Assembly: GCA_021815405.1 (NCBI GenBank) | Contig: JAKAGV010000001.1 | Location: forward strand, 558,001 to 622,000 | Direction of reading: 5' to 3' | DNA length: 64,000 nucleotides | Source: Bacteroidota bacterium | GTDB lineage: Bacteria; Bacteroidota; Ignavibacteria; Ignavibacteriales; Ignavibacteriaceae | Shown: positions 33,333 through 52,484 of the stretch, piece by piece | How positions within the stretch are numbered: the first letter of the stretch is position 1 | Layout: each line of letters opens with the position of its first letter | The notes under the pieces: model-generated | Database searches by the model: none | What the model was told of the DNA's origin: nothing | The model's input: only the letters and a program-made list of their open reading frames with translations | Position numbers and translations under genes: made by a program

Positions 33333-33366
33333 TTTAAATTATTTAAAGGTTTTTAAGAAAGTTAAA
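33333..33366. promoter_or_regulatory. TTTAAA array (candidate activator site), copA operon
   Basis: Four hexamers, TTTAAA 33333, TTTAAA 33342, TTTAAG 33352 and GTTAAA 33361, are spaced 9, 10 and 9 bp. The same array recurs before six other operons in this window, always upstream of a TGGCA promoter element. Confidence 0.6.
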
Positions 33367-37348: not shown

Positions 37349-37389
37349 CAATCGAATTGCGTTTTTAGAGCATTATAGAGTTTTTGGCT

Positions 37390-37423
37390 GTTAAAGAATT
37401 TAAGAATCTTAAAAATTTTTAAA
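37390..37423. promoter_or_regulatory. TTTAAA array, His-rich/S2P operon
   Basis: Four hexamers, GTTAAA 37390, TTTAAG 37399, CTTAAA 37408 and TTTAAA 37418, are spaced 9, 9 and 10 bp upstream of the best sigma54-like element. Confidence 0.6.
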
Positions 37424-37438
37424 TATGTTTATGATGAA

Positions 37439-38125
37439 CTACTTTATTTTATACCATAAAATATGCTCATACAAGCTGGACCAAAGCATTCCAAAAGAAA
37501 ATGCAAACAGCAGTTCTTCAAGCGGAATGCCGAGAAAAAGAATTCCGGTTAGGGCTTTTAAGTTCCAAACGTGAACCACATAATCAGGAAAGACAGCAAG
37601 CAGGCTGACGAAGAAAATAAAATAATAAACTAAGAATAATAATCCGCCAACCCATATCTTCCACTTCAAGTCCGGTCTGCAATACAAGGTTAGTAATGCG
37701 CCGGCAAACATTGAAATTACTCCGCAATAAATATGGTTCAGATTTGTAAATACAGCCAGTAGAAGAAAAATTGGTATTGGTGAAGTTAAGATGTAAATAT
37801 GAAACTTGTGGCGGCCATGCTTCATTTCGGAAGTATCCATTTTAGAAACATTCTTCTTGTAGATGAACCTGTATAAAATCGAACTAGTACCGCCGATAGC
37901 AAATGTAAATATTAGGCTTTCGATATCGAATCCCGTTCTTTGCGCTAAGTTGAGCAGAGTCGGCGGGTTCCAATACGCCGGTACAAACAACGGTTCCGTA
38001 AGACCTAATAACATTGTAGCCAGACTAATAGACATCATTTCTTTTCTGAAAAGAGGTTTTGATAAATATAGAATCAGCCAAAACATCAGAAAGAACAAAG
38101 ACCAAACCAACCAAACATAGTGCAT
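37439..38125 (-). CDS. Lycopene-cyclase-domain-like membrane protein
   Basis: A 228-residue protein with about seven TM helices. GTSSILYRFIYKK and the acidic motif GIPLEELLFAFSFG (PxEE) are the marks of the CrtYc/d-type carotenoid cyclase fold. No carotenoid desaturase is nearby. It lies last in the run with nuoK, nuoJ and a geranylgeranyl-reductase-like gene, which hints at an isoprenoid-quinone or carotenoid modification; the substrate is unknown. Confidence 0.75.
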   Translation of the reverse strand: MHYVWLVWSLFFLMFWLILYLSKPLFRKEMMSISLATMLLGLTEPLFVPAYWNPPTLLNLAQRTGFDIESLIFTFAIGGTSSILYRFIYKKNVSKMDTSEMKHGRHKFHIYILTSPIPIFLLLAVFTNLNHIYCGVISMFAGALLTLYCRPDLKWKIWVGGLLFLVYYFIFFVSLLAVFPDYVVHVWNLKALTGILFLGIPLEELLFAFSFGMLWSSLYEHILWYKIK

Positions 38126-38159
38126 AATTTTTTTCTTTCTTTAAAAAAATGATGGTGAC

Positions 38160-38462
38160 TCACCACTTCAATATATTTATTTCGTTTATGTTTACCGTGA
38201 GCTTATTCCGGAAAATTGCAATTATAATTGCCAGCCCAACAGCGGATTCAGCGGCAGCTACAGCAATAACAAAAAACACAAATATTTGTCCGACCGGGTT
38301 ATCAAGAAAAGCTGAGAAGGCAACAAGCGTAAGGTTAGCGCCGTTCATCATCAACTCAATGCACATAAAAACCATTATAGCATTCCGTTTTGTTAGGACT
38401 CCTACCATTCCAATTGTGAAAAGGATTGCGCTTAAAATTAAGTAAAAACCAAGAGGCATCAT
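38160..38462 (-). CDS. nuoK: NADH-quinone oxidoreductase subunit K
   Basis: A 100-residue three-TM complex I subunit of normal length. The membrane Glu residues are conserved in [12 protein letters not shown] and [17 protein letters not shown]. It follows nuoJ by 14 bp. The expected nuoL gene does not follow; a lycopene-cyclase-like gene does. Confidence 0.92.
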
Positions 38463-38476
38463 AACTCCTATAATTT

Positions 38477-38989
38477 TTAATCTAACTTTTTCTTTGCTAA
38501 AATAAGAGCGCCGATAATTGCGGCAAGCAGCAGAAACGAGACAGCTTCAAACGGCAATAAATAGCTTGTGTACAGAGCCTTCCCTATAGATTCTACCGTT
38601 CCTAATCTCGCAGCGCTCTCCGGCAGAGAAGAAGCTTTACGGCTTGCGGACGAGACAATTAAAATTATCATTTCAGTAAGGAAGCCAACGCCAATTGCAA
38701 TTGCAAGCAGTGCGTTAAATTTCGACTTGCCAGCCGAATGCTGTGTATCTCTAATATTTAAAAGCATTATTACAAAAAGGAACAACACCATAATTCCGCC
38801 TGCATATACAAGTATCTGCAGAACGGCAATAAACTGTGCATTGAGTGTAAGGTATAATATCGCAAGGCAAATGAAATTTAAAATCATACTCAAAACGCTC
38901 ATAACCATGTTTCGAGATAGAACCATTGTGATTGCAGAAGCTACAGCCGCTGCTCCAACAACCAACTCAAAAATTTGCTCAAGACTCAT
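38477..38989 (-). CDS. nuoJ: NADH-quinone oxidoreductase subunit J
   Basis: A 170-residue five-TM complex I subunit. The conserved TM3 block is [20 protein letters not shown]. It starts the nuoJK pair; no other upstream nuo genes (A-I) are in the window, so this is an isolated fragment of the usual operon. Confidence 0.92.
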
Positions 38990-39042
38990 TTGAATCCTTT
39001 CCTCATTGCAATACTATGATGCAATAAATTTGCTATCCCAAA

Positions 39043-39068
39043 ATTCCTCCGAAGGAGTCCATCGGACA
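39043..39068 (-). repeat. 26-bp intergenic hairpin repeat, copy 1
   Basis: On the minus strand it reads TGTCCGATGGACTCCTTCGG followed by AGGAAT. The same 26-bp sequence with one mismatch occurs at 53183-53208. It lies in the 155-bp gap between nuoJ and the flavoprotein gene. Confidence 0.6.
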
Positions 39069-39144
39069 TTACTCCAAATAATGCGAAAGCTAAGTGATGA
39101 CTATTTAATGCCGATGCAACCTTCGAGGCGACGCATCATTTCGT

Positions 39145-40281
39145 TCAATGCGCATGCTTACCGTGCCTGCACCAAACGCAGTCGCAGTTTTTGTGCATAC
39201 ACTGCTTGTCTATTAATCTTGTCTTGTACCATCTTTTAGCAATCTTATACGCTATCCTTTTTTGTACTGAAGTATTGTAATGATTTCTTAATGTGGGAAT
39301 AACATCATCTAACCTTGCCATCGCATCAAACATAATTGAATATCCGGTATTGTATAAATGAGAAAAGAGCCATCGATTCGCCAAAGACGTTTTAAATTTA
39401 GGAAACAAATTTGTTCTGCACAGCTCCGTATAATCCTGGTTGCACATAATACTTTGCGCAGCATAATAGCCCGAAAGCATAGCGTACTTAATTCCGAATC
39501 CCCAAAGCGCATCCTGGAAGCCTGCATTCTCGCCAATGTAAAGTATGTTATTTTTTGCAACAATAGGCTCGTTAAAAAAATTGGCAAAACCCCCGAATTC
39601 TTTTGCTTCATTTATATCGATGTTAATCGAAGAATTTAGAGCCGATAATGCTCTATCGAAATATTTCCTTTCATTTTTAAAATCTTCAAACATGCATGTA
39701 GCAAAAGTAGCCTTGCCGTTATTTACTAAAAGATAAGCGTAGGCTTTCGGGGCAATTCTATTATCTGCAAAGCCGATGGAAATATTTTTATGAGATGTTT
39801 TAAATACAATACCCTTTGCGATTGCATCTGCAGCCTTCGGTCCAGTTCCTACAATTGCAATTTCATCTTTTATTGAATCAAGCTTTTGATTCCAATGGAT
39901 GTTAACGCCGGCTTTCTCTGCCTGTCTCTTCAATCCCTGGTCTAATGAATTAGTATCCGTTCCTCTTTCAATCAGGTAAAAAAGCGGGCGGGAAGTTTTA
40001 ATATGCACGCTTTTCTTATTCGGTCCTATGAAAAGGCAGTCTTCTCCATCATAAGGATGACAGACAAAATTAACTTTGATGCCGATCCGTCTTAAGATGC
40101 TTAAAGTATCTTCCTCATCCGACCAGTTTTCAAGCCCTTGAAAATCACCGTTAAATCTTAATCCTACTTCTTCGTTCTGTTCGTACAAATTTACTTCGTA
40201 TCCGTTTTGGGCAAGATTTATGGCGGCGGTTAATCCGCCCGGACCGGCACCAACTATGGTAACAGCTTTATTTTTGTTCAT
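39145..40281 (-). CDS. Geranylgeranyl-reductase-like FAD oxidoreductase with Cys/His tail
   Basis: A 378-residue flavoprotein: N-terminal dinucleotide motif VTIVGAGPGGLTAAINLA, a middle segment with GTGPKAADA, and the C-terminal FAD block ILYIGENAGFQDALWGFGIK. The family reduces isoprenoid chains or related lipids. An unusual C-terminal tail, KQCMHKNCDCVWCRHGKHAH, has four Cys and four His and looks metal-binding. It follows two YHS proteins in the same run of genes. Confidence 0.82.
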   Translation of the reverse strand: MNKNKAVTIVGAGPGGLTAAINLAQNGYEVNLYEQNEEVGLRFNGDFQGLENWSDEEDTLSILRRIGIKVNFVCHPYDGEDCLFIGPNKKSVHIKTSRPLFYLIERGTDTNSLDQGLKRQAEKAGVNIHWNQKLDSIKDEIAIVGTGPKAADAIAKGIVFKTSHKNISIGFADNRIAPKAYAYLLVNNGKATFATCMFEDFKNERKYFDRALSALNSSINIDINEAKEFGGFANFFNEPIVAKNNILYIGENAGFQDALWGFGIKYAMLSGYYAAQSIMCNQDYTELCRTNLFPKFKTSLANRWLFSHLYNTGYSIMFDAMARLDDVIPTLRNHYNTSVQKRIAYKIAKRWYKTRLIDKQCMHKNCDCVWCRHGKHAH

Positions 40282-40361
40282 ACATGAATTTTAGCATAGT
40301 TCTCAGAATAAAAGCATGAGTGCATGGCTGCATGTAATCATACAGTCATCCAAACATGCAA

Positions 40362-40547
40362 TCAGTGGTGATGATGCTCGTGCCCATGCTCTTTATCATC
40401 ATCTTTCTTAGCGTATTTATTCGGGTCAAGTAAAAATTTTGTTTTACATGAGTCCGAACAGAAGTGATATTCAGTGTTGTTATAAACAAGAGTTACTGCT
40501 TTGGAAACATCTTTAATTTCCATTCCGCAAACCGGGTCGTGTATCAT
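40362..40547 (-). CDS. YHS-domain metal-binding mini-protein with His tail
   Basis: A 61-residue protein that is a single YHS domain: HDPVCGMEIKDV, then YNNTEYHFCSDSCKTKFLLDPNKY, with a poly-His tail. The Cys set resembles the TRASH/YHS domains that bind copper or silver. Its ATG lies inside the end of the preceding YHS gene (35-bp overlap in another frame). Confidence 0.85.
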   Translation of the reverse strand: MIHDPVCGMEIKDVSKAVTLVYNNTEYHFCSDSCKTKFLLDPNKYAKKDDDKEHGHEHHHH

Positions 40548-40797
40548 TGTAGTGTCCTTTCATTTTGTTTTGAAGTGTTTTATCAAAATTATTTTTATTC
40601 AATAAAGGATGATGATGCGGGTTCTTAATGCCAATATCTTTTTTGACATATTTTTCAGGTTCTTCCTCAAATTTAATTTTGCATAAGTTTGTGCAGAAAA
40701 AATAAGCTTTACCTTGATAAATATATGCGGGGGCTTTAATTGTGTCCTTTATTTCCATACCGCAAACCGGGTCGTGTGTCTTATTATTGTTCAACAT
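40513..40797 (-). CDS. YHS-domain protein, first gene of its operon
   Basis: A 94-residue protein: YHS domain at the N-terminus (HDPVCGMEIKDT, YFFCTNLCKIKFEEEPEKYV), then a His/Asn-rich linker ending in the overlap with the next YHS gene. It starts 32 bp after a sigma54-like element with a TTTAAA array. Confidence 0.85.
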   Translation of the reverse strand: MLNNNKTHDPVCGMEIKDTIKAPAYIYQGKAYFFCTNLCKIKFEEEPEKYVKKDIGIKNPHHHPLLNKNNFDKTLQNKMKGHYNDTRPGLRNGN

Positions 40798-40828
40798 TTT
40801 AAATTCCTTTTGTTTTCATTACTTAACC

Positions 40829-40844
40829 TCAAAGTACAAGCCAA
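40829..40844 (-). promoter_or_regulatory. Sigma54-like promoter, YHS/flavoprotein/nuoJK operon
   Basis: On the minus strand TGGCTTGTACTTTGA: TGGC at -24, then GA at -12 (consensus GC). Weaker than the others, but it has the same position and an upstream TTTAAA array. Confidence 0.45.
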
Positions 40845-40892
40845 AGGAAAGCTTGATTTTTAGAGCAGAATACAGCCTAAGGTTTTAATTCT

Positions 40893-40927
40893 TTTTCAAT
40901 AATTTAATTATTTTTAAAATATTTAAA
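40893..40927. promoter_or_regulatory. TTTAAA array, YHS/flavoprotein/nuoJK operon
   Basis: TTTAAT 40903, TTTAAA 40913 and TTTAAA 40922 are spaced 10 and 9 bp, with a degenerate fourth unit near 40893. Confidence 0.5.
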
Positions 40928-40944
40928 AATCTATTATGTAATTG

Positions 40945-41214
40945 CTACAAAATCCTAAATCTTCCATCTAAGAAATCATTCGGATTACCCGGATCGTAAT
41001 GTCCTTCTTCCTTATCTGCGTAGGCAGAAGGATTGTTATCGAAGACCTTCTTACAAGTCCTGCAGCAAAAATAATATTTTGCATTCTTATAAACGCTGAT
41101 TCCTTTCGCTTCTTCAGAACTTATAACTTCACCGCAAACCGGGTCGCGCTCAAACTCAATTCGCTTTACAATAGTAATTGAATTTTCTTCATTAATTATA
41201 ATATCAGTTTCCAT
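40945..41214 (-). CDS. YHS-domain protein
   Basis: An 89-residue protein with a YHS domain in its middle (ERDPVCGEVISSEEAKG, YYFCCRTCKKVF). It has an extra Cys next to the canonical pair. It is the last gene of the operon running from 44662 and lies just inside the TTTAAA array of the next operon. Confidence 0.8.
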   Translation of the reverse strand: METDIIINEENSITIVKRIEFERDPVCGEVISSEEAKGISVYKNAKYYFCCRTCKKVFDNNPSAYADKEEGHYDPGNPNDFLDGRFRIL

Positions 41215-41226
41215 ATATCCCTCTGC

Positions 41227-41478
41227 CTAATTTACATTTTCACTCAAATACTTTTCGGGTTCTTTTAAGAATTTAGTTTTGCATTCCATACTGCAGAAAT
41301 AATATTTTATATTGCCGTCTATAACCATAGCGCCGGCATATTTTGGCGCTTTAATTATCTTGCCGCAGACAGGATCACGCAGCAGCTCATCCGAAAGTGA
41401 ATTTACTGAATCTATTTCGCCATTCAAATAAATTTCACGCATTTTAACTAAACTCCATATATCTTCCGTATCTAACAT
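41227..41478 (-). CDS. YHS-domain protein
   Basis: An 83-residue protein. About 35 residues precede the YHS domain (RDPVCGKIIKAPKY, YYFCSMECKTKFLKEPEKYL). The gene lies 30 bp after the TonB receptor stop and 12 bp before the next YHS gene. Confidence 0.8.
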   Translation of the reverse strand: MLDTEDIWSLVKMREIYLNGEIDSVNSLSDELLRDPVCGKIIKAPKYAGAMVIDGNIKYYFCSMECKTKFLKEPEKYLSENVN

Positions 41479-41508
41479 TTTACATCCGTATTTTTATTTA
41501 TTATCAGC

Positions 41509-43719
41509 TTAAATTTTCAAATCAATTCCGATAACCGGCGTTATCGTGCTGAAGAACGTCATGAATTTCTTAGCCGAGTAATCGCTGCTGTACATCCAGT
41601 GGATTGCATTCTGATTATCAAGTACGTTCAAAACTTCCAAATAAACTGTAAACGGCATTCTTCCAATTTGCAATAATCTTGTCAATCGCAAGTCAAGCCT
41701 ATTGTAAGCCGGGTAACGGGCAGAGTATTGAACGCCCAGTTCAGGTATGTACTTATCTTTTGCTTGATTAAAATAACTTCCAACGACCGGTGTATAAGGA
41801 GTTCCTGTACCGTATCTGTATTTGCCGCCGAAAGACCAATTGCCGGAAAAGTTGTAGTCAAAAACCGCGCTGACCATGTTAGTCCTGTCAAAGTCAAAAT
41901 ACTGCTCGGTAGTAACAATACCCGCTTTTCTTTTTGACACTGAATATGAATATGAAACCCATCCTACAAGCCTTTTATCCAACTTGAATGTTACATACAA
42001 CTCCGCTCCCCGTGCATAACCGAATCCGGTGTTCGTTACGCTCTCACTTGCAGCATCGTAAGAAATCAAATTAAAATACCTTTTGTTGTAAAACTCAAGG
42101 TCAGCGCTAAATGCATCCGACAATTGATGCTTAATTCCTATGCCGATATTTTCCGCCTTCTCAAAATTAAGCGAGCGGTTGCCGCCAATCTCATAAGCCT
42201 CCGGCGATTGATAATACAATCCGTAATCAAACGAAAGGCTCATGTGATTATTCCATCCGTAAACAAGATTGAACCTGGGAGACAGAGCGCCTTTATCAAT
42301 TACAGTGAGATCATCGTACCTTATTCCAGCATTGAAGGAAATCTTATCTGTAAGTTTAACCTTGTCCTCGGCATATCCGGAATAAAGTGTAGCCTTACCG
42401 GCACCATAAAAGCTGTAATCCTTAAGTGTGTAAATGTTTTCATTAGCAGCAAGATTAACTGAAGCCCGGTCGTCTTTAAAAACAAGCCATCCGCCTACAT
42501 GGACGTCGTTGCTGCCGAATGTAAACGACAAGTCGTTCTTAATCCCGTATTCCTTTTGATTATAATTTTCAAAGGAATTCTGCGGATACGTGCCCTTCCG
42601 GTTGTCTTCTGAATAATAAATATTCAGTTCATTGACTGCATTATTAGAAAGAAATAAATCCAACTGCGCACCGAAGGACTGGTTGAGAGCATCGCCCGTC
42701 CAGATTCCGTTTGTCAGCGGATAGTCTTTAAGATTATAATCGGCATATTCACTTTCATACGAATCAAGCCCGGTAAGAGTAAGCTTCCCTAATCCCGAAA
42801 GATTGAAATCCAGCTTACCATAATAATCATAAAAGTAAGGTGTAGACGTGAATCCGCTGCTCAGGTCAGGTAACAGCTTCATAACAACGTCAAAATAGCT
42901 CCGGCGCGCTGCGAAAAACCCTGAGCCATTTAGTCCTTTTAGCGGGAACTCAACAATTCCATTTAAGCTTGTAAGGCTTAGGTCTACTTCTCCTTTTAGC
43001 GAATCCGGGTTTGCCGTCTTATTAGTAATGGCAAGGACTGACGACAGTCTATCGCCGTACCTTGCAGGGAATCCGCCTTCGTAAAATTTTACTCTTTCGA
43101 TGAGTGCTGAATTAAAAACGCTGAAAGCCCCGCTGCCTTCAAGCGCGAAATGATAGGGATTGGGAATGGTAGTGCCGTCAAATAATATCAAGTTTTCGGA
43201 GGGATCTCCTCCACGCACATAAAGCTCCGACATATCGCTTCCGCTTGTAACTCCCGGAAGCGTTTGAAGCGTCCAGAAAATATCTTCTGCTGAGCCCGGA
43301 GAGCGCATTATGCTGTTTCTATCTAATTGCGCAGTTAATCCACTTGCATCAAACCTCTCAAGCTTAGGCGCCACTATCACGGACTGCAATTGAATATCCT
43401 TTTCTTTTAAGGACCTATCAATTGTAACAACCTTATCAACGGCAGCATTAACGTTCTCAACCAATAACGTCCCATAACCAACCATCGATATTCGAATACT
43501 ATATTTGCCTGCCGGAACCTTAAACGAAAAATTTCCATTCAAGTCTGTAGCAGCTCCGAAATCAGTCTTTTCTACTTTAACGTTTACACCGATGAGCGGC
43601 TGACCTTCGGCGTTTTTTATTCTACCCCGGATTGTAGAATTAAAATTTTTAACTTGCCCAAATACAAAACTGCCGGACAAGAGAACCAACAATAATATTT
43701 TTATATCATGTTTCAACAT
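41509..43719 (-). CDS. TonB-dependent receptor with carboxypeptidase-regulatory-like domain
   Basis: A 736-residue outer-membrane receptor: signal peptide (residues 1-21), a CarboxypepD_reg-like domain (about residues 28-105, AEGQPLIGVNVKVEKTDFG), then the plug with NSIMRSPGSAEDIFWTLQTL and LYVRGGDPSENLILFDGTTI, and a barrel ending in DLKI. This Bacteroidota-type receptor is in an operon with YHS proteins. It may import a copper-chelate or metallophore; substrate not deducible. Confidence 0.87.
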   Translation of the reverse strand: MLKHDIKILLLVLLSGSFVFGQVKNFNSTIRGRIKNAEGQPLIGVNVKVEKTDFGAATDLNGNFSFKVPAGKYSIRISMVGYGTLLVENVNAAVDKVVTIDRSLKEKDIQLQSVIVAPKLERFDASGLTAQLDRNSIMRSPGSAEDIFWTLQTLPGVTSGSDMSELYVRGGDPSENLILFDGTTIPNPYHFALEGSGAFSVFNSALIERVKFYEGGFPARYGDRLSSVLAITNKTANPDSLKGEVDLSLTSLNGIVEFPLKGLNGSGFFAARRSYFDVVMKLLPDLSSGFTSTPYFYDYYGKLDFNLSGLGKLTLTGLDSYESEYADYNLKDYPLTNGIWTGDALNQSFGAQLDLFLSNNAVNELNIYYSEDNRKGTYPQNSFENYNQKEYGIKNDLSFTFGSNDVHVGGWLVFKDDRASVNLAANENIYTLKDYSFYGAGKATLYSGYAEDKVKLTDKISFNAGIRYDDLTVIDKGALSPRFNLVYGWNNHMSLSFDYGLYYQSPEAYEIGGNRSLNFEKAENIGIGIKHQLSDAFSADLEFYNKRYFNLISYDAASESVTNTGFGYARGAELYVTFKLDKRLVGWVSYSYSVSKRKAGIVTTEQYFDFDRTNMVSAVFDYNFSGNWSFGGKYRYGTGTPYTPVVGSYFNQAKDKYIPELGVQYSARYPAYNRLDLRLTRLLQIGRMPFTVYLEVLNVLDNQNAIHWMYSSDYSAKKFMTFFSTITPVIGIDLKI

Positions 43720-43773
43720 ATTAGCAATTCTTCTTTGAACTTAATCTCGAACTTAAACTTGTACTTTGGTACA

Positions 43774-44436
43774 CTATGTATTATCCGAAGATAACTTCGA
43801 ATATTGTATAACCTGGTGCCACTGTCCTTTTACTGGAATAAACATAGGTACATGCCTCTTGTATTCAATATATTCTTCTCCAAATTGCTCAATCACCTTC
43901 CGCTCTTCTTTCCGTGCAAGCAAAGTGTATGCTATTATAATAATTGGAAACAAGCCTACAGAGAAAAATGTAGGCCAGTGTACAATGCCTTCACCGAAAA
44001 GACCGAGAAATAAACCTGTATATTGCGGATGCCTTACAAAGCTATATAATCCTTCTGTTGCAAGCTTATTCTCTTGATGAGCCCTGTAAAGCTCACGCCA
44101 TCCTTGAAGAAAAATTCCAAAACCAATAAAAAGAATAATGTAGCCGATTATCATCGAAATCATCATTCCCGTATCGCCTAATCCTATTAATGTCGACCAA
44201 AGATTTGCATTTAAATAAGTCCGGTCTAATCCAAAGAACCGTACAAGCAGATAAATTGTAAGCGGGAAGCCGTACATCTCAGCGTATAATGCTATGATGA
44301 AAGCTTGGATGAGTCCTGCGCCAGCCCATTCCCGCCATGTCTTTGGCGCAAGGTATTTGTAAAGCAGCCATGATGCAATTACAATCATAATAATTGCAAC
44401 AGCCCATGCGCCCGAATGTGCGATAGTTCTTTGCAT
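43774..44436 (-). CDS. Isoprenylcysteine/phospholipid methyltransferase-like membrane protein
   Basis: A 220-residue ICMT/PEMT-family protein with five or six TM helices and the conserved C-terminal block LYSFVRHPQYTGLFLG and EERKVIEQFGEEYIEYKRHV. It transfers a methyl from SAM to a membrane lipid or isoprenylated substrate. It starts one base after a YHS-domain gene. The substrate is unknown. Confidence 0.82.
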   Translation of the reverse strand: MQRTIAHSGAWAVAIIMIVIASWLLYKYLAPKTWREWAGAGLIQAFIIALYAEMYGFPLTIYLLVRFFGLDRTYLNANLWSTLIGLGDTGMMISMIIGYIILFIGFGIFLQGWRELYRAHQENKLATEGLYSFVRHPQYTGLFLGLFGEGIVHWPTFFSVGLFPIIIIAYTLLARKEERKVIEQFGEEYIEYKRHVPMFIPVKGQWHQVIQYSKLSSDNT

Positions 44437-44437
44437 T

Positions 44438-44662
44438 TTAAAGTTCCTTTCTATGATTTATTTCTTTGCAGTTACACTTGTCCGGTTTATGCAGGCTGTA
44501 ATTCATTTCAAAGCGAATACCTGAAGTAAACGATTCAGGTTCTGCGTCAAACATTTCCTTGCACACCCCGCAGCAAAAGTAATATGTCTTGCCTCTGTAC
44601 CTGCTTTTCAAATCGTCGTATTCTTTAATCAAGTACATTCCGCAAACTACATCCTGTACCAT
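44438..44662 (-). CDS. YHS-domain mini-protein, first gene of its operon
   Basis: A 74-residue protein: DVVCGMYLIKEYDDLKSRYR, then YYFCCGVCKEMFDAEPESF, and a C-terminal DKCNCKE. The ATG at 44662 is preferred because it starts MVQDVVCGM like its paralogs and leaves about 26 nt of leader after the sigma54-like promoter; the upstream ATG at 44680 would leave only about 8 nt. Confidence 0.75.
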   Translation of the reverse strand: MVQDVVCGMYLIKEYDDLKSRYRGKTYYFCCGVCKEMFDAEPESFTSGIRFEMNYSLHKPDKCNCKEINHRKEL

Positions 44663-44698
44663 TTCAATTTTCTCTTTCATGTTTCTTAATTACCATTT

Positions 44699-44714
44699 AA
44701 CAAAATATCTGCCA
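44699..44714 (-). promoter_or_regulatory. Sigma54-like promoter, YHS/ICMT/TonB operon
   Basis: On the minus strand TGGCAGATATTTTGTT: GG-N10-GT. It is preceded, 52 bp upstream, by a TTTAAA array. Confidence 0.5.
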
Positions 44715-44765
44715 AAAGAAAGTTTGATTATTTAAGCAAAAAACAAACAGTCATCGCTTTTTATT

Positions 44766-44799
44766 TTTAAGTTATTTAAATTTTATTAAATAATTATAA
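44766..44799. promoter_or_regulatory. TTTAAA array, YHS/ICMT/TonB operon
   Basis: TTTAAG 44766, TTTAAA 44775, ATTAAA 44785 and a degenerate fourth unit near 44794 are spaced 9, 10 and 9 bp. Confidence 0.55.
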
Positions 44800-44830
44800 T
44801 GGAAGCTGCTCAATAAGCGTAAACCACTTA

Positions 44831-47197
44831 TTATCTTGTGATAGACAAAATCTCTTTCACATCTTTTAAAACCAAAACCAGCAGCACCGTTATCGAATAA
44901 ATAACTATTGCTGCAGCGACAATTACTTCATATCCCCAGACAGTAGCGCCGATAACAACTGCAATTGAGCCGATAAAATATCCAATGCCCGATACGCCTA
45001 AAAGCATCGCAATTCCGTTCCTGTCGTTTAATTGGGAAATGTAAGACAGAATTACCGGGAATGGTATGCTGATAAAGATTGCCGGAAACAGTACGATTAG
45101 AAGAAGCAAACCGCTTGCAGTAACATTAACCGCTGAAGGCAAAATAAAAAACACCTCTACTCCGGTTATTGCAATTGCAAGCGAGAGAGTGAGCTGCAAT
45201 AATTTAAGCGACGGCTTAAACAGCTTTGTTAAAAGGCTGCCAATGCCGCTTCCCAATAGGAAGCCAAATAAAAGTATCGTAAAGGATTTTAACGGACTGC
45301 TCAAATTCAAATTTAATTTTTGAAATATAAATGCCTGAATAAGTATATCAGAAATATTTATTAATAGCACAAGGAGCGCAGCATATTTGAACAACCGGCT
45401 ATAACTTTTGTCTTTATCATTCTCATTGAATTCTACAAACCAATTTTTTCCAAATGCCCAGAATGTAAACGCGACTGTGAAGATTAAAACAACCAGCAGC
45501 GAATCAAGATTGTCCGGCAGTCCTAACTCGTAATTGAAAAAGTACGGCGAGTTATCATACACCGGACGAAAATTGACCGCGGCATTCTTCGAGAACTGAT
45601 GGAAATTGTATTTGCCCCCGGAAACATCAACTAAAATTTGATTGAACATGGTTAAAGTATATCTCTCTCCGTTTGGTAGGGTCGTATCAATACTTAACTG
45701 TTTTATGAAAGGAAAAAACAAAATACCTTTATCGAGTCCGGCGTAATGCGCCACAACATGTCTGGGTTGAATCTCATCAAATGTAAAAGGCTCTTTCTTA
45801 ATTACTAAAACCGGCATCATGCCGTCGGATATTACGTACACGTGCTTCATTGCTTCCTGTTGTGTAATACCGCGGCTTTCCATTAACGTTAGATAGTTGC
45901 TCAGCATTTTAAAAACCTCTTCCTCATTGTGAAGGGTAAAAATAATCCTTCCGTTATCTGAAACTGCGTTTAAATAATCTTTAAGCGCTTCAACTGTAAA
46001 AAGATAATCTTCTGTTAAGTTAAGGTAGTTAGCCGATCTAATTCCTTTCGTAACCGGGATTGTTAAAAATATTATATTGAATTTGCTTTTAGTTGTTCTT
46101 ACAAAATTTCTTCCTTCCTGAACTTTAACATGAATGTTGGGCTTATCTATAAAAGTTCCGGGATTATATTTTCTCATCAGCTCTACAAATGAAGGATTAA
46201 CTTCAACCGCCTTTATATATTTAGCTCCGCCAAAGTAAGCTGCTGCTATATCAATGCCGCCGCCCGGGCCGATAATTAAAACAGAATCTTTTTCATCTTC
46301 TTTTAAAAAATTAAATGGAAAGAAAGCACTGAAGTGCATTAAGGTATGCTTAAGCTTAAGCGTATCCTTTTCTAATTTTGAAATATCAACCACTTCCGTT
46401 CCGGCAGCACCATCAATAAACATTGACCTTGAAGTTGTTCCGTCTGGATAGGCGAATCTTACAAGGTCTGTTCTGCCGAAGGAGCTCCACCGGCTGGCAA
46501 TCTCTTTTGTCTTAACGTAAGGATTGCTTTCCAACCTTACTAAATCTTTATCCGGATTCTTTACTATCTTAAAATCAAAATCATAATTCTGCAGAATAAC
46601 TATTGCAATGATAACGGCAGCAGCTAAATTTATGGAAATAAAGATTTTGTTAATTCTTTGATTAAGCAAGCCAGCCGTAATCGAAGCGGCAATCAAAAAA
46701 ATCAAAACTATTCCAAACAGATTTATTAAGTTGAATGAGTTCAGCAGATAGTATGAAGCTAAAGCAGCCGATGCGCCTCCTAACAAATCGAAGCCGTAAA
46801 TAAGCCCGCTGTTTGCGCTGTTGGTTTGAAATATATATCCGGATACAATTCCTATTGCCGCAAAAGGTAAGATTGAACAAATTATGAATGCAATTAAGCC
46901 AATCGCTCCTATGCTGAATAGCTCCGTGTGTGGAAGAAATATTAAAAATACAACACTTACGATAAGCGAGAGTATTACTATGACAAAGTAAGAAAGAACT
47001 TTCGAATAAATCCACTCAAACTTTCTAGCAAAGAATATCTGTCCAATTGATAATCCTAAAAGCGAAAAGGCAATTATTATAAAAATAAAATGGTAAGTTA
47101 AGATGTATGAAAAATAGCGGGACAAAGAAATTTCAAATAGGATTACAGCGAAGGATAAGAGATAAATGGTAAACAGCGATAGTATTAATTTTCTCAT
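44831..47197 (-). CDS. Polytopic membrane protein with spermidine-synthase-like SAM domain
   Basis: A 788-residue protein. N-terminal ~210 residues hold about seven TM helices. A soluble Rossmann SAM-binding domain follows (SVLIIGPGGGIDIAAAYFGG, then KAVEVNPSFVELM and HVKVQEGRNFV), and six or so C-terminal TM helices close it. It belongs to the fused transporter/spermidine-synthase-like family of unknown function. It could methylate or aminopropylate a membrane substrate. Third gene of a TTTAAA-array operon. Confidence 0.82.
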   Translation of the reverse strand: MRKLILSLFTIYLLSFAVILFEISLSRYFSYILTYHFIFIIIAFSLLGLSIGQIFFARKFEWIYSKVLSYFVIVILSLIVSVVFLIFLPHTELFSIGAIGLIAFIICSILPFAAIGIVSGYIFQTNSANSGLIYGFDLLGGASAALASYYLLNSFNLINLFGIVLIFLIAASITAGLLNQRINKIFISINLAAAVIIAIVILQNYDFDFKIVKNPDKDLVRLESNPYVKTKEIASRWSSFGRTDLVRFAYPDGTTSRSMFIDGAAGTEVVDISKLEKDTLKLKHTLMHFSAFFPFNFLKEDEKDSVLIIGPGGGIDIAAAYFGGAKYIKAVEVNPSFVELMRKYNPGTFIDKPNIHVKVQEGRNFVRTTKSKFNIIFLTIPVTKGIRSANYLNLTEDYLFTVEALKDYLNAVSDNGRIIFTLHNEEEVFKMLSNYLTLMESRGITQQEAMKHVYVISDGMMPVLVIKKEPFTFDEIQPRHVVAHYAGLDKGILFFPFIKQLSIDTTLPNGERYTLTMFNQILVDVSGGKYNFHQFSKNAAVNFRPVYDNSPYFFNYELGLPDNLDSLLVVLIFTVAFTFWAFGKNWFVEFNENDKDKSYSRLFKYAALLVLLINISDILIQAFIFQKLNLNLSSPLKSFTILLFGFLLGSGIGSLLTKLFKPSLKLLQLTLSLAIAITGVEVFFILPSAVNVTASGLLLLIVLFPAIFISIPFPVILSYISQLNDRNGIAMLLGVSGIGYFIGSIAVVIGATVWGYEVIVAAAIVIYSITVLLVLVLKDVKEILSITR

Positions 47198-47237: not shown

Positions 47238-48149
47238 TTAGTTCTGATTTTGCTTTGCGGTTCTTCTATCGAAGAAGTGGTATATCAGTATAAAAAAGTA
47301 GCCCAAAATAGAACCCCATAAAAATGAAACTACGATTCCTCCTAAAGCTGCAAATGCGTTTAAGGAGTTGAAGAACGGAATAAACGGTTTAAAAATAGTG
47401 GGGTTGTTTTCACCTGAGAAAATCAATTTGATTATAGCCAGAAGAAAAACAATTACCGCAAAGACTCCGGCTGCAATTCCAAAATATTTTTCATCGTACT
47501 TTTTGCCGTTGTAAGTTGTTTTCGTTCCTTTCAACTCGTTAAATTTAATTTGTGATTCAACTTCTTGAGAAAGATTATTTCCCTCCAATTTTTTTAGTTC
47601 GGATTTTTCATAATTGTTCAGTGTCTTGGAAAAGATGAACGCGGTGTAAGCGCTGTATATTAAGATATCAAGAAGTCCAAATAAATAATTCGGAAACGTT
47701 GGGCTGATGAACCCCGGCAGCAATGTTTTCCATAGAATCGTCATTTTATATCCGGCTGGTACAAATAAATCGTAAATAAGGCAAAGAGTAAAAAGAATGG
47801 AAGTATAAGCCGCAAAAGTAAAAAACAAAGTTTTAAACCTTATAATGATTGGCTTTATTTCTATCTTGTGTTTGCTTAGTCTTTTCTTAGCTAAAAAATT
47901 ATAAAGCGGCACTATTATGTATCCAATAAAATATGAACCAACAGAAACTTCCAGCAATCCAATTACAATGCTTAGTGAATCCAAGCCGTTGAACCAAGGC
48001 AGAACGGCTTCCCAAATTTTGTGCATGTGCCAGAAACCCACAATGCCGAGGCTTGAAAGCAAAAGCTCAACACCAATGCACACCAAGTACAAAACGGCAA
48101 ATATAAAAAATAACGCACTGGCAATCGGATAAGGTTCTAACTTTTTCAT
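47238..48149 (-). CDS. Membrane protein with three internal membrane repeats
   Basis: A 303-residue protein with about eight TM helices. Three repeats of one unit are visible: WEAVLPWFNGL with IVIGLLEVSVGSYFIGYIIV, WKTLLPGFISP with YLFGLLDILIYSAYTAFIF, and a third with FKPFIPFFNSL and GYFFILIYHFF. Each resembles the DUF5676-type unit also seen singly at 36658. Function unknown. It shares the transcript with a YHS protein and the spermidine-synthase-like gene. Confidence 0.65.
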   Translation of the reverse strand: MKKLEPYPIASALFFIFAVLYLVCIGVELLLSSLGIVGFWHMHKIWEAVLPWFNGLDSLSIVIGLLEVSVGSYFIGYIIVPLYNFLAKKRLSKHKIEIKPIIIRFKTLFFTFAAYTSILFTLCLIYDLFVPAGYKMTILWKTLLPGFISPTFPNYLFGLLDILIYSAYTAFIFSKTLNNYEKSELKKLEGNNLSQEVESQIKFNELKGTKTTYNGKKYDEKYFGIAAGVFAVIVFLLAIIKLIFSGENNPTIFKPFIPFFNSLNAFAALGGIVVSFLWGSILGYFFILIYHFFDRRTAKQNQN

Positions 48150-48278: not shown

Positions 48279-48464
48279 CTAAACATTAATCTCTTTATAT
48301 CTCTCAACATATTTCTTCGGGTCCTGCATAAACTCCGCTTGACATCTGGGGCAGCAGAGGTAGTAAATTCCATTTTCAAATTTTATTTTAGCGTAAGCTT
48401 TATTTTTATTCATTCTTCTCATACAAACCGGATCCCTTAGAATGTTATTCTTTTTGGTCTTCAT
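48279..48464 (-). CDS. YHS-domain mini-protein, first gene of its operon
   Basis: A 61-residue protein: LRDPVCMRRMNKNKAYAKI and YYLCCPRCQAEFMQDPKKY, a compact YHS domain with an extra Cys. It begins 61 bp after a sigma54-like element and is divergent from the histidine kinase gene. Confidence 0.8.
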   Translation of the reverse strand: MKTKKNNILRDPVCMRRMNKNKAYAKIKFENGIYYLCCPRCQAEFMQDPKKYVERYKEINV

Positions 48465-48524: not shown

Positions 48525-48540
48525 GCCAAACTATATGCCA
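48525..48540 (-). promoter_or_regulatory. Sigma54-like promoter, YHS/repeat-protein operon
   Basis: On the minus strand TGGCATATAGTTTGGC: GG-N10-GG. The TTTAAA array lies 53 bp upstream and also precedes the divergent histidine kinase gene. Confidence 0.55.
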
Positions 48541-48592
48541 ATGGCAATATTCTTTTTTCTGATGGATTTTCTTAATATGTCATGGATGCAGT

Positions 48593-48626
48593 ATTAAATA
48601 ATTTAAAAGTTTTTAAATTCTTTAAA
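48593..48626. promoter_or_regulatory. TTTAAA array between YHS operon and histidine kinase
   Basis: ATTAAA 48593, TTTAAA 48602, TTTAAA 48612 and TTTAAA 48621 are spaced 9, 10 and 9 bp. It could serve both the YHS operon and autoregulation of the kinase operon. Confidence 0.6.
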
Positions 48627-48683
48627 ACTTACAGAACTAATTTATTCTGATAAGAAAGAAATCTTGAAGGTATAAGATTTGTT

Positions 48684-50486
48684 ATGAAATCAATTATGAA
48701 CTTAGATGTTTCCCAGTTGTTATTTCTTATCGTTACTTTCTTAAGTGCGGTCGGACTAATCTTTATTATATTCTCCCGGGCGGGCAAAGATAAGAAGAGT
48801 CAGCTTTTTATTTTAATATTGGTTCTTATAATCGGCTACTTGATTTCTCACAGCGTTCATTTCTTGCTCATGACTTCCGAGGACGTTACTATTTTAGACA
48901 TCTCGTGTCATTCGCTTCTGCTTTTGATAATCGTAACTATGACTTTTTTCACCTGGAATTTTCCACATCCTCGAAAGATGGGTATTATTAAAAGCCTTTC
49001 AATTTTAGTCCCGTCGGCTTTGCTCTTTTACTTTTTATGGAGCGATAATCTAATCCACCAATCGCATATTCATGGAAGCATGTTTGAAGCGCATTTCGGC
49101 CCGCTTTATCCGTTATATTTAATCTTTTATATGCTGCTTATCGCTCTAAATTTTTATTGGCTAATAAAAAAATATTATAAAGAAACTGATGAACTTCTTA
49201 GGAAACAAATTCTTTTATTCGCAATAGGATTAATCATTACGAACCTTGTTACTTTTATCTTTGGATTATTCCTGCCGTGGTATCTGGGATTTTATTTTCT
49301 TGTTGAAATGAGTCCGGTCGCATTCTTATTCGGCGTCATACTCTTCACTACTTTTGCTGTCAGCAAATATGATATGTTTCCTGCATTGGGAAGGCTGCAC
49401 AATTTAAGCATAAAGAAGAAAATTATTTTAAGCTCGCTTATTCTTGTGCCGATAATAATTTTGTTAATTCAAATCCCGCTTATAAAAATTATATTTGATA
49501 TAAAATCCAACACCGAGCTTATGCGCTACTTCATGCTCAGTGTTTTGGGCGGACTGATTGTAAGTGTTAGTATTGCCTTTGTAATAATCAAAGTAATTTC
49601 AAATCCGCTTAATCAGCTTAAGGCTAAAGCGCATGAGATTGAAAAAGGTAATTACGGTATTAAATTAGAGACACGCACTAATGACGAAATAGGCGAGCTT
49701 ACCGAAGCCTTTAATAATATGTCCCAAACCTTAAAAAGCAACACGGAAGAATTAATCAAAAGGGAAAAGCTTGCTGCGCTCGGTAAAATGGCTGCCGTGC
49801 TTGCACATGAAATTAAAACACCCTTAACTTCGATTAAATTGAATGCCGATATTATTGCCGAGACTCTCGATTTAAGCGAAGATGACAGAGAGAATTTTGA
49901 AATTATGAAAACGGAAATCAATCGCTTAAACAATCTTGTAAAGGATGTCCTCCAGTTTTCCCGTCAAATGGAATTAAGCTGCTCTCAAATTAATTTAAAA
50001 GATTTAATAAATGATGTTCATAATCAACTTTGCAAAAAGCTGGGAGAAAAAAATATTACGTTAATTAATAACACAGAAAACATACGTCTTTATGTTGATG
50101 CCGATAGATTGAGGCAGGTATTCATCAATATGATTGATAATTCAATCGAGGCAATCAGCCGGGAAGGCTTAATTGAAATAAATTCACAAATCCATGAAGA
50201 AGAAAATTTTATTTCTATCTTTGCAAAAGATAATGGAAGCGGCATAGCCGCAAGCAGTATCGAGCCTGAGCTGAAAATATTCGAGCCCTTCTTTACTACT
50301 AAAGCCTCAGGAACCGGCTTGGGGCTTTCAATCTCACAAAAAATAATTGAGCAGCATAACGGAGAATTTAATCTTGTGTCATCAAAGAAAGGCGAAACAA
50401 TTTTTGAAATTAAACTGCCGTTGAAACCTAAAAACATAGAAGAAAATATTCCTCTTATTCAAAGAACAGACCTAAAGGAAAGTTAG
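48684..50486 (+). CDS. 7TM sensor histidine kinase, proposed sigma54 copper-type sensor
   Basis: A 600-residue kinase. Residues 1-240 hold about seven TM helices (HisKA 7TM-type). A loop near residues 121-140 carries His125, His128, His130, Met133 and His137, a good metal site. Another TM and a HAMP-like region (KVISNPLNQLKAKAHEIEKG) follow, then the HisKA box LGKMAAVLAHEIKTPLTSIK and an ATPase domain with DNSIEAIS, DNGSGI and GTGLGLSIS. It stops 3 bp before the activator gene, so they form a cognate pair. The kinase-regulator call is firm; the metal is inference. Confidence 0.9.
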   Translation: MKSIMNLDVSQLLFLIVTFLSAVGLIFIIFSRAGKDKKSQLFILILVLIIGYLISHSVHFLLMTSEDVTILDISCHSLLLLIIVTMTFFTWNFPHPRKMGIIKSLSILVPSALLFYFLWSDNLIHQSHIHGSMFEAHFGPLYPLYLIFYMLLIALNFYWLIKKYYKETDELLRKQILLFAIGLIITNLVTFIFGLFLPWYLGFYFLVEMSPVAFLFGVILFTTFAVSKYDMFPALGRLHNLSIKKKIILSSLILVPIIILLIQIPLIKIIFDIKSNTELMRYFMLSVLGGLIVSVSIAFVIIKVISNPLNQLKAKAHEIEKGNYGIKLETRTNDEIGELTEAFNNMSQTLKSNTEELIKREKLAALGKMAAVLAHEIKTPLTSIKLNADIIAETLDLSEDDRENFEIMKTEINRLNNLVKDVLQFSRQMELSCSQINLKDLINDVHNQLCKKLGEKNITLINNTENIRLYVDADRLRQVFINMIDNSIEAISREGLIEINSQIHEEENFISIFAKDNGSGIAASSIEPELKIFEPFFTTKASGTGLGLSISQKIIEQHNGEFNLVSSKKGETIFEIKLPLKPKNIEENIPLIQRTDLKES

Positions 50487-50489
50487 TAA

Positions 50490-51866
50490 ATGGAAAAAAT
50501 TTTAGTAATCGACGACGACCAGTCAATAAGAAAAACTTTGACAAGCTACTTAAAGAAACAAGGCTACGAAGTCTTGTCTGCCGAAAACGGCACTGCCGGA
50601 ATTGAAATTGTTAAGAGCGAGCCGCCCGACCTCATAATTACGGATATAAGAATGCCTGGAGCTGACGGCTTTGAAGTGCTCAAGAATGTGAAAGAAATCG
50701 ACCCGCACATCCACGTAATAATAATTACTGCCTTCGATGACATGCACACCACCGTTAAGGCAATGCAGCAAGGTGCTTACGACTATATTGAAAAGCCGCT
50801 TGAGATTGATAAGCTGAAATTAACTATTCAGCGTGCGCTTGAAAATAAAAAGCTGAGCGACGAGCTTAATTCATTTGTAAGCGAAAAGACCGAAGAGTAT
50901 GAACTTGAAAATACCTTAATCGGCAAAACTCAGCAGATGAAACAAGTCTATAAAAAAATTGGACAAGTTTCATCAAGCCGGGTTACTGTTCTAATCGAAG
51001 GTGAAAGCGGTACCGGGAAAGAATTAGTGGCTCGCGCAATTCATTATAGCGGAATTACTAAGACACATCCGTTTGTAGCTGTTAATTGTACTGCGCTAAC
51101 CGAATCGCTTCTTGAAAGCGAGCTATTCGGACATGTTAAAGGCGCTTTCACCGGCTCTATTAAAGATAAAAAAGGAAAATTTGAGCTTGCCGGAGAAGGC
51201 ACAATCTTTCTTGATGAAATTTCCGAAGTCTCTCCAAATCTTCAAGTAAAGCTTTTGCGGATTCTTCAGCAAAAAGAATTTGAGAAAGTTGGCGGAGAAA
51301 ATTTAATTCCTATGAAAGCCAGAGTAATTGCTGCTACCAACAAGCGCCTAAGCGAGCTTGTTAAAGCCGGAAAGTTTCGCGAGGATTTATATTACCGCCT
51401 AAAGGTTTTTTCAATCGATATCCCGCCGCTAAGAGAAAGAATTGAAGACATACCTTATCTTGTCAGCCACTTCTTAAAAAAAATAAATCTTGAACTTCAT
51501 AAAAACGTAAACAAAATTCCGGAAGATGTTATGGATTTACTTAAGAATCATTTCTGGATAGGCAACGTTAGGGAACTGGAGAATACACTTATGCAGGCAG
51601 TGGTTCTTTCAAGCGATGATGTACTTCTTAAAGAAAATATTCTGCTTAGAAAGTCAGAACAGCTTGAAGCTAAAGATAGTAAACTGGAAACCAAAGTTGA
51701 ATACATTACGCTTGAGGAATTAGAAAAGCGGCACATCAAAAATATTCTGGATGCTTTGAAGTGGGATAAAAGTAAAGCTCATAAAATCCTTGGCATTTCT
51801 TTGCCTACGCTGTACTCCAAGATTGAGCATTATAAGCTTTCTCCGTTTGAAGAAAAAGCGGATTGA
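50490..51866 (+). CDS. NtrC-family sigma54-dependent response regulator
   Basis: A 458-residue activator: receiver domain with DDD near residue 8 and phosphoacceptor Asp in LIITDIRMPGADG; central AAA+ domain with Walker A GESGTGKELVARAIH, the sigma54-contact motif GAFTGS, and Walker B GTIFLDEIS; C-terminal Fis-type HTH (LGISLPTLYSKI). It should act from upstream sites by contacting sigma54, which fits the TTTAAA arrays and -24/-12 elements on both sides of this gene. Cognate kinase directly upstream. Confidence 0.95.
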   Translation: MEKILVIDDDQSIRKTLTSYLKKQGYEVLSAENGTAGIEIVKSEPPDLIITDIRMPGADGFEVLKNVKEIDPHIHVIIITAFDDMHTTVKAMQQGAYDYIEKPLEIDKLKLTIQRALENKKLSDELNSFVSEKTEEYELENTLIGKTQQMKQVYKKIGQVSSSRVTVLIEGESGTGKELVARAIHYSGITKTHPFVAVNCTALTESLLESELFGHVKGAFTGSIKDKKGKFELAGEGTIFLDEISEVSPNLQVKLLRILQQKEFEKVGGENLIPMKARVIAATNKRLSELVKAGKFREDLYYRLKVFSIDIPPLRERIEDIPYLVSHFLKKINLELHKNVNKIPEDVMDLLKNHFWIGNVRELENTLMQAVVLSSDDVLLKENILLRKSEQLEAKDSKLETKVEYITLEELEKRHIKNILDALKWDKSKAHKILGISLPTLYSKIEHYKLSPFEEKAD

Positions 51867-52389: not shown

Positions 52390-52423
52390 TTTAAATTCTT
52401 TAAAAATATTTAAACTTCTTAAA
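52390..52423. promoter_or_regulatory. TTTAAA array, DUF3347/multicopper oxidase operon
   Basis: TTTAAA 52390, TTTAAA 52399, TTTAAA 52409 and CTTAAA 52418 are spaced 9, 10 and 9 bp. The first 31 bp are identical to the array before the TolC operon at 55612. Confidence 0.65.
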
Positions 52424-52484
52424 AGCTCAGCCATTCAAAAAACATAAAAACCTTTATTATTTGTTAAATTGAGGCTGCCCCCTT

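Follow-up and report, generated by a model that had tools for sequence, protein, structure and literature searches.

The subject of this report is a stretch of 64,000 nucleotides (nt), hereafter the window, from a Bacteroidota bacterium of the family Ignavibacteriaceae (GCA_021815405.1, contig JAKAGV010000001.1, positions 558,001 to 622,000), whose 4.97-Mb genome is assembled in 31 contigs. A metal island spans approximately 29-63 kb of the window and encodes CopA with an N-terminal YHS domain, a cupredoxin, a multicopper oxidase, an outer-membrane factor, CusB, CusA, and small metal-binding proteins; the combination of CopA, a Cus-type pump, multicopper oxidase, cupredoxin, and metal-binding proteins places it among islands of the copper-resistance type. 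Sequence analysis makes it highly probable that this island harbors a two-component, sigma-54-type regulon together with a recurrent gene cassette. The predicted cassette consists of a flavoprotein, an ICMT/PEMT-like methyltransferase, and an SpeE-like membrane protein, is joined by a lycopene-cyclase-like protein in part of its carriers, and appears to be mobile. The metal to which the regulon responds is probably copper. For the system as a whole, the reading that we favor, at roughly even odds, is a metal-induced remodeling of the respiratory membrane, in which both the metal signal and the chemistry are inferred; lipid or quinone chemistry of the cassette, taken on its own, falls slightly short of an even chance.

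Copper resistance is usually described in terms of export, sequestration, and oxidation of the metal. If the favored reading is correct, the response of bacteria extends to the membrane under attack, which they would modify by means of a regulated and recurrent cassette located beside the pumps. The occurrence of ICMT in copper islands is already known, whereas the regulated, recurrent cassette is new. The cassette provides a starting point for understanding the so far unexplained ICMT-like proteins of metal islands and draws attention to a family of flavoproteins whose Cys/His tail is conserved, while its array and promoter signature can be used to find further members of the regulon.

Spaced arrays and a probable sigma-54-type switch

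Single TTTAAA hexamers are rarer in the window than expected (66 versus 93), and an excess of the hexamer as such was therefore rejected as a signal; only the spaced array counts. The pair TTTAAA-N3/4-TTTAAA occurs eight times compared with 0.3 expected, and a mismatch-tolerant scan for four boxes recurring every 9 or 10 nt, scored out of 24, detected exactly seven arrays in the window versus four matches across all of twenty Markov-generated 64-kb control sequences. Hence, the TTTAAA array proposed in a preliminary description of this region is real in the form of a spaced multi-box array. Genome-wide, the exact pair is found at 23 places, eight in the window and 15 elsewhere, and the latter look like chance because a reversed control pattern yields 14. 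Ten of the 11 three-box matches listed with at most one mismatch, both strands counted, fall in the island; the sole listed array of this kind outside it is at G000:C12:227165-227189.

Three of the seven arrays, at 40.9, 44.8, and 48.6 kb, serve the genes under study, as judged by position. They precede the flavoprotein operon (40894..40928, minus strand, 22/24) and the methyltransferase operon (44765..44798, minus strand, 20/24), or lie between the YHS-DUF5676-SpeE-like operon and the divergent kinase/regulator genes (48593..48627, 23/24). The remaining four are situated before genes leading to CopA and cupredoxin (33333..33366, minus strand, 22/24), before genes for a His/Gly-rich protein (36957) and an M50-type protease, both named from their translations (37390..37423, minus strand, 21/24), before the DUF3347 and multicopper oxidase genes (52390..52424, plus strand, 23/24), and before the outer-membrane factor-CusB-CusA genes (55612..55646, plus strand, 23/24).

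Promoters recognized by sigma-54 share a -24/-12 consensus, which served as the basis of a hand-weighted matrix with a maximum score of 26. All seven arrays of the window are followed by such a sigma-54-type element 39-59 nt further on. In six of them the element lies within 44-52 or 56-62 nt, ranges that were chosen after a first promoter scan of the arrays, and in the seventh, at 37.4 kb, it lies at 39 nt with a score of 24.0 (TGGCATTTCTCTTGCT, approximately 37333-37350). On the minus strand, the flavoprotein operon has TTTGGCTTGTACTTTGAG at 40828..40845 (20.5/26), the methyltransferase operon has TTTGGCAGATATTTTGTT at 44699..44716 (22.5/26), and the YHS-DUF5676-SpeE-like operon has an element at 48525..48542 (21.5/26); on the kinase side of the 48.6-kb array, no clear promoter was found (score 17.5). 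The elements belonging to the CopA, oxidase, and Cus arrays are located at approximately 33257-33274, 52483-52500, and 55706-55723, respectively. Among 45 distinct arrays from the window and fetched relatives (two overlapping matches in locus L052 counted separately), an element scoring at least 20/26 is present within 150 nt in 41, whereas 200 shuffles averaged 1.58 such arrays and never exceeded 6; in 37 the element is positioned at 44-52 or 56-62 nt, for which the shuffles averaged 0.195 and reached 2 at most. The two distance classes differ by about one helical turn.

Downstream of the 48.6-kb array, on the plus strand, the island encodes a histidine kinase (48684..50486; HisKA, HATPase_c, and HAMP) and an NtrC-type response regulator (50490..51866; Response_reg, Sigma54_activat, and the Fis-type helix-turn-helix HTH_8), the presumed array binder, and one RpoN was found in the genome. 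With an activator, an RpoN, and an element at set distance, the array is, as far as its sequence context indicates, a promoter feature of a sigma-54-type regulon, to which the regulator is predicted to bind. The cassette genes, possibly excepting the lycopene-cyclase-like gene, share this array and promoter kind with the CopA, multicopper oxidase, and Cus operons, in agreement with their earlier assignment to the metal regulon.

All genes named in the preliminary description were found where it had placed them, on the minus strand, and they are arranged in three groups. In transcription order, the first contains a YHS gene (48279), a DUF5676-like gene (47238), and the gene of the SpeE-like membrane protein (44831); the second contains YHS (44438), the PEMT/ICMT-like methyltransferase (43774), a TonB receptor (41509), and two further YHS genes (41227 and 40945); and the third contains two YHS genes (40513 and 40362), the flavoprotein (39145), nuoJ, nuoK, and the lycopene-cyclase-like gene (37439). 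Gene order and spacing suggest co-transcription within each group. The proposal that these genes reside in array-bearing operons stands for the flavoprotein, methyltransferase, SpeE-like, and YHS genes, whereas the lycopene-cyclase-like gene lacks its own array.

Genes of the cassette and their neighbors

The flavoprotein gene (39145..40281, minus strand) encodes a protein that passes several generic Pfam models for flavin adenine dinucleotide (FAD) domains and ends in a Cys/His tail, C-x-H-xx-C-x-C-x-W-C. For its predicted structure (predicted local distance difference test, pLDDT, 84), the best solved match in Foldseek is 3oz2, followed by S. acidocaldarius reductase entries and, after these geranylgeranyl reductases, by halogenases and hydroxylases of the same superfamily. 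A profile search against PDB sequences gave weak matches to many flavoprotein families, mostly in the N-terminal FAD-binding part. The best NCBIfam match is the geranylgeranyl reductase family TIGR02032, at 69.3 bits versus a cut-off of 158.8. The motif PxxYxWxFP, which we take to be the substrate motif of geranylgeranyl reductases, is altered to PxxYxYxL, with P178 and Y181 invariant, Y183 replacing W, and L185 replacing F. The designation geranylgeranyl-reductase-like therefore holds for the fold, but not for the curated score; the substrate motif is kept in part, and the Cys/His tail is an addition; judging by its model, the protein is a fold relative of geranylgeranyl reductases and, with its score below the curated cut-off, is not filed as a member of the family. 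At least 90 percent of 31 aligned homologs conserve the tail, which looks metal-binding, and it is recognizable in four plasmid proteins from proteobacteria that are 36-39 percent identical; in the predicted structure, the pLDDT of the tail is under 50.

The membrane methyltransferase (43774..44436, minus strand) matches both PF04191 (29 bits, cut-off 25) and PF04140 (27.5 bits, cut-off 24). Residues R135, H136, P137, Q138, and Y139 (RHPQY) as well as E177 and E178 are invariant in 17 sequences, and they correspond to RHPxY and EE, presumably the cofactor residues of ICMT/PEMT methyltransferases. Against the ICMT equivalog NF040696, the protein scores 41.5 bits, below the cut-off of 160. In the portions of the published reports available here, to which all comparisons with the literature in this text refer, ICMT-like genes belong to described copA clusters (PMC8478169, PMC3056050, PMC7563307). 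The view that such enzymes are not usually part of copper resistance was thus mistaken for this protein, and copper-induced envelope enzymes (Lit2/Lgt2) are known from Gram-positives (PMC8275575).

The membrane protein with an SpeE-like domain (44831..47197, minus strand) had been labeled spermidine-synthase-like. Its domain scores 19.3 bits against PF01564, below the cut-off of 22.9, and has a glycine-rich loop. The DSxDP motif, which we assume to be the catalytic motif of spermidine synthase, is absent: where 1inl has DSTDP, the aligned sequence reads LTIP-VTKG and contains no aspartate. Spermidine synthase identity is not supported, and polyamine synthesis was rejected because the motif is missing. 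Within the same group, the DUF5676-like membrane protein (47238..48149, minus strand) matches PF18926 at 31.7 bits (cut-off 27.6).

Five of the six small YHS open reading frames, all on the minus strand (40362, 40513, 40945, 41227, 44438, and 48279), exceed the PF04945 cut-off of 30.3 bits. They are the two overlapping genes that open the flavoprotein operon (40362..40797, 54.2 and 54.9 bits), the two that close the methyltransferase operon (40945..41478, 39.1 and 36.3 bits), and the first gene of the latter (44438..44680, 57.2 bits), while the first gene of the DUF5676/SpeE-like operon (48279..48464) is just under it at 29.6 bits. The overlap of the first pair comprises 35 nt in different frames (40513-40547). 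YHS domains have been proposed as metal, and probable copper, binders (PMC4626032). The methyltransferase operon also includes the TonB-dependent receptor (41509..43719, minus strand; PF00593 and PF07715).

The lycopene-cyclase-like membrane protein (37439..38125, minus strand) matches PF18916 at 64.9 bits (cut-off 27). In 10 homologs, E69, E203, E204, H106, H109, and Cys149 are invariant, with glutamates in both halves; its predicted structure is weak (pLDDT 67) and gave no significant Foldseek match. Phytoene synthase was not found in the host, in which the only two PF00494 genes found are HpnC and HpnD; hpnC-hpnD-hpnE (G000:C11:121518-123106) all exceed their NCBIfam cut-offs and correspond to squalene synthesis. 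With only HpnC and HpnD among the host PF00494 matches, filing the protein as a lycopene cyclase of the CrtYcd type was rejected despite the PF18916 match, and the carotenoid branch of the earlier proposal was rejected for this host.

Between the flavoprotein and lycopene-cyclase-like genes lie copies of nuoK and nuoJ (38160..38989, minus strand), recognized as such from their translations. They begin after a 155-nt gap behind the flavoprotein, and a weak terminator-like hairpin coincides with the nuoK stop; hairpins of this type are common in the window (18 found versus 8.9 expected). The window nuoJ has two further copies in the genome, with 48 and 38 percent identity. Elsewhere, nuoJ/nuoK and other nuo pieces are located beside the flavoprotein and CopA in L112 (1227-2261), and a nuo block occurs near the flavoprotein on a Paracoccus plasmid (L171). 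A nuoM copy inside the island (33444-35048, minus strand) is interrupted by two in-frame stop codons, and an intact relative of 535 residues is present in a similar setting in L079.

Recurrence across genomes and plasmids

Among 146 genomes, including that of the window, the flavoprotein is present in 18 and the methyltransferase in 18, with 13 in common (Fisher p 5e-11). SpeE-like proteins with at least 43 percent identity, a cut chosen after viewing the list, occur in 15 genomes (32 match at 1e-20), 14 of which also hold the flavoprotein (Fisher p 4e-15); related genomes in these tests are not independent. To these surveys were added 40 fetched flavoprotein loci, whose titles name Ignavibacteria, Melioribacteraceae, Calditrichota, Neomarinimicrobiota, Bacteroidetes, and others. 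Neighbors were counted up to 10 kb around the flavoprotein where contigs allowed, and 20 regions at set coordinates in five relatives served as controls. YHS was found at 26 loci, CopA at 27, the methyltransferase at 21, SpeE-like at 17, cupredoxin at 15, and the lycopene-cyclase-like protein at 10, compared with one CopA, one regulator, and no kinase, YHS, methyltransferase, SpeE-like, cupredoxin, or lycopene-cyclase-like match in the controls. YHS or CopA is present at 35 of the 40 loci. The preliminary description had suggested searching for recurrent co-occurrence with YHS proteins and regarded its lack in other genomes as decisive against the idea; YHS genes near 26 of 40 loci and none of 20 controls bear the suggestion out, and because the flavoprotein, methyltransferase, SpeE-like, and YHS genes recur together in relatives, such a lack is not what was found.

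Clustering of neighbors without the window as a reference produced a similar ranking and additionally brought up DUF302 at 14 loci, a cluster of methyltransferases at 11, and a Rieske protein at nine. Two typed members of the methyltransferase cluster have demethylmenaquinone and phospholipid N-methyltransferases as their best matches, below cut-off. In nine of the 40 loci (L075, L079, L080, L090, L097, L099, L103, L106, and L109), a Rieske motif protein is encoded no more than 800 nt downstream of the flavoprotein; none of the 20 control regions has one. Two typed representatives exceed the Rieske cut-off of Pfam but not those of NCBIfam.

Gene order is repeated in several lineages. The order SpeE-like, lycopene-cyclase-like, YHS, methyltransferase, flavoprotein is seen in L094, L095, L102, and L113, which are loci from Bacteroidetes metagenome-assembled genomes; their SpeE-like proteins are only 25-30 percent identical, and that of L094 reads as two open reading frames. 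In the Ignavibacteria locus L075, the order is lycopene-cyclase-like, YHS, methyltransferase, YHS, flavoprotein, and in the Calditrichota loci L091 and L097 it is methyltransferase, flavoprotein, lycopene-cyclase-like. In L098, from the cultured Fodinibius roseus DSM 21986, the flavoprotein adjoins YHS genes and CopA. Other neighbors of the flavoprotein include a cyclopropane synthase in L105, and an MMPL-family exporter and a LolA-like gene in L108. P-type ATPase matches occur in L107 and L114, and none of the tested metal markers in L100 and L105.

Flavoprotein homologs of 36-39 percent identity are present on seven plasmid records, three of them fetched with 6 kb only. A cyclopropane-fatty-acid synthase gene is adjacent or one gene off in four, FabI is found in three, a cardiolipin-synthase-like gene in three, Rieske in two, YHS in one, and a Nuo block in one. 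Four of the plasmid records were fetched to a width of 9 kb; three of these have an ICMT gene within that range, and the fourth is truncated by the end of its record.

The lycopene-cyclase-like family matches eight of 395 phylum genomes, five of them strongly (window included). Within 1.5 kb of the strong matches are YHS and methyltransferase genes in G040, a YHS gene in G324, an HMA protein gene in G322, and a gene for a Met-rich protein (by translation) in G415; no such neighbors were seen, in stretches of similar size, around the weak matches, which comprise a second copy in G040 and proteins from three other genomes. These four weakly matching proteins, one of which was checked as PF18916, share only 24-28 percent identity with those of the metal islands. 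Homologs also occur on six plasmid records, five of which were fetched: a 48 percent homolog adjoins a Cus-type pump and CopA on a Methylophaga plasmid; one Croceicoccus record carries a homolog in two annotated pieces after DUF2933-ICMT, the other Croceicoccus record being unannotated; a 30 percent homolog adjoins a prenyltransferase in Ilyobacter; and a partial match lies approximately 4 kb from an RND pump in Polaromonas.

Proposed membrane remodeling, rival explanations, and known systems

Under a metal-induced remodeling of the respiratory membrane, the kinase at 48684 would sense metal or metal-caused damage and phosphorylate the NtrC-type regulator at 50490, which would then bind the TTTAAA arrays and activate RpoN promoters approximately 50 or 60 nt downstream. 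The cassette enzymes would act on lipid-soluble compounds of the inner membrane, altering polyprenoids, quinones, or phospholipid chains, and would thereby leave the respiratory membrane less damaged by, or less reactive with, copper, while CopA, Cus, and the oxidase would remove the metal. The earlier suggestion of a metal-induced modification of membrane components is partly supported by the placement in the regulon, the co-occurrence with YHS genes, and the lipid and respiratory neighbors of homologs elsewhere; its carotenoid part is not supported. More specifically, and only tentatively, the Cys/His-tailed flavoprotein, the lycopene-cyclase-like protein, and the ICMT-like enzyme might constitute a horizontally moving arm of metal resistance that produces, when required, a quinone, polyprenoid, or membrane lipid inert to copper, with the tail letting metal gate or report the reaction and a sigma-54 two-component switch controlling it.

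Several observations weigh against membrane remodeling under a common switch. The arrays of relatives are partly homologous and hence non-independent, and the promoter counts derive from a hand-made matrix with post hoc offset ranges. The regulator and the kinase are each found within 10 kb of the flavoprotein in only three of the 40 loci, and the sigma-54 switch is therefore limited to part of the carriers; L053 carries arrays, yet its nearest regulator is only 42 percent identical. The lycopene-cyclase-like gene, which follows nuoJ-nuoK and whose control by an array is unclear, occurs in only two of 146 relatives. In all 25 NCBIfam models shown of 58 matched, the flavoprotein falls below the curated cut-off, and its Cys tail could mean direct metal chemistry instead. 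The lipid and respiratory neighbors vary by lineage, and a Rieske motif was sought in the window and not found. In L100, L105, L107, and L114, translations indicate that the flavoprotein lies among apparent general stress or energy-metabolism genes, and L100, L103, and L105 have none of the tested metal markers; the function of the flavoprotein therefore need not be metal-specific.

The main rival is a direct metal role of the Cys-tailed flavoprotein, which we consider unlikely, albeit the strongest of the alternatives. In mercuric reductase, cysteines deliver mercury to FAD, and by analogy the cassette would consist of metal-handling proteins that reuse lipid-enzyme folds: the flavoprotein, whose tail would hand metal to FAD, would reduce or oxidize either copper or a copper thiolate; the lycopene-cyclase-like protein would serve as a metal binder in the membrane; and no lipid would be changed. 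Such a role would fit the conservation of the tail in the aligned homologs and its presence in the four plasmid proteins, the change of the geranylgeranyl-reductase motif to PxxYxYxL, the invariant His106, His109, and Cys149 in the 10 lycopene-cyclase-like proteins, and the frequency of YHS and CopA genes as neighbors. However, contact of the low-confidence tail with FAD is unsupported by the model, the plasmid neighbors include lipid enzymes, three loci are devoid of metal markers, and the methyltransferase retains RHPQY and EE.

Considerably less probable is that the genes are passengers, generally useful stress genes that share their mobile islands with copper genes and do not form a common pathway. 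Their patchy distribution, presence on plasmids, varied neighbors, and loci without metal markers would be expected of passengers, but the tight co-directional order with YHS genes repeated in several lineages, and the arrays and promoters common to Ignavibacteria relatives, would not. Still more doubtful is a scheme in which the ICMT-like enzyme and its partners target exported proteins or lipoproteins for modification, similarly to Lit2 and Lgt2, which are copper-induced and co-transcribed with copper genes (PMC8275575). Lgt adjoins the flavoprotein in L098 and, judged by a like translation, in L101, but it was noticed in only these two of the 40 loci, in a survey that included no family search for Lgt; moreover, the 41.5 bits of the methyltransferase are far from the ICMT equivalog cut-off of 160, and the scheme gives the flavoprotein and the lycopene-cyclase-like protein no role. 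Finally, metal-induced carotenoid synthesis with a true lycopene cyclase, to which the PF18916 match above cut-off would point, is extremely improbable given that the only two PF00494 genes found in the host are HpnC and HpnD beside HpnE, that the four weak phylum matches, which are located elsewhere, share only 24-28 percent identity with the island proteins, and that the Ilyobacter homolog adjoins a prenyltransferase instead.

Membrane remodeling by the cassette can be set beside several known systems. The merR-copA-cupredoxin-DUF2933-ICMT islands of Alteromonas and other Gammaproteobacteria are likewise copper islands with CopA, cupredoxin, and an ICMT-like methyltransferase (PMC8478169); they are under MerR control, unlike the sigma-54-type two-component system proposed here, and in the available part of that report the gene lists are without the flavoprotein, lycopene-cyclase-like, and SpeE-like genes and the text gives the methyltransferase no role. 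ICMT-like proteins also occur within metal-resistance clusters as CzcN/NccN of Cupriavidus and as a czcN homolog between cusF and copF in Pseudomonas putida (PMC7563307, PMC3056050), where, in contrast to the present island, the text at hand names no companion flavoprotein; czcN1 rises on copper (PMC7563307). The archaeal geranylgeranyl reductases (3oz2, 4opt, and 3atq) have the fold and FAD motifs in common with the window flavoprotein, which is 13-17 percent identical to them (Foldseek) and differs in its altered substrate motif and extra Cys/His tail. A gene annotated as geranylgeranyl reductase, chlP, is named in a figure legend on predicted copper determinants of acidophiles (PMC5328820), a likeness at the level of annotation; apart from this case, searches of the open-license part of PubMed Central brought up no account of the flavoprotein, lycopene-cyclase-like, or SpeE-like genes in copper islands.

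Two further systems touch the proposed chemistry more directly. The Lit2/Lgt2 genes of Listeria and Enterococcus likewise form a mobile copper operon with envelope-changing enzymes (PMC8275575), but these are different enzymes that alter lipoproteins, a chemistry that has been demonstrated, whereas that of the present cassette is proposed. In Lactococcus, menaquinones can act as reductants of copper and aggravate its toxicity (PMC8965153, citing Abicht 2013); the available text describes no modifying enzymes there, and this menaquinone-driven copper reduction supplies a rationale for modifying quinones, as the cassette may do.

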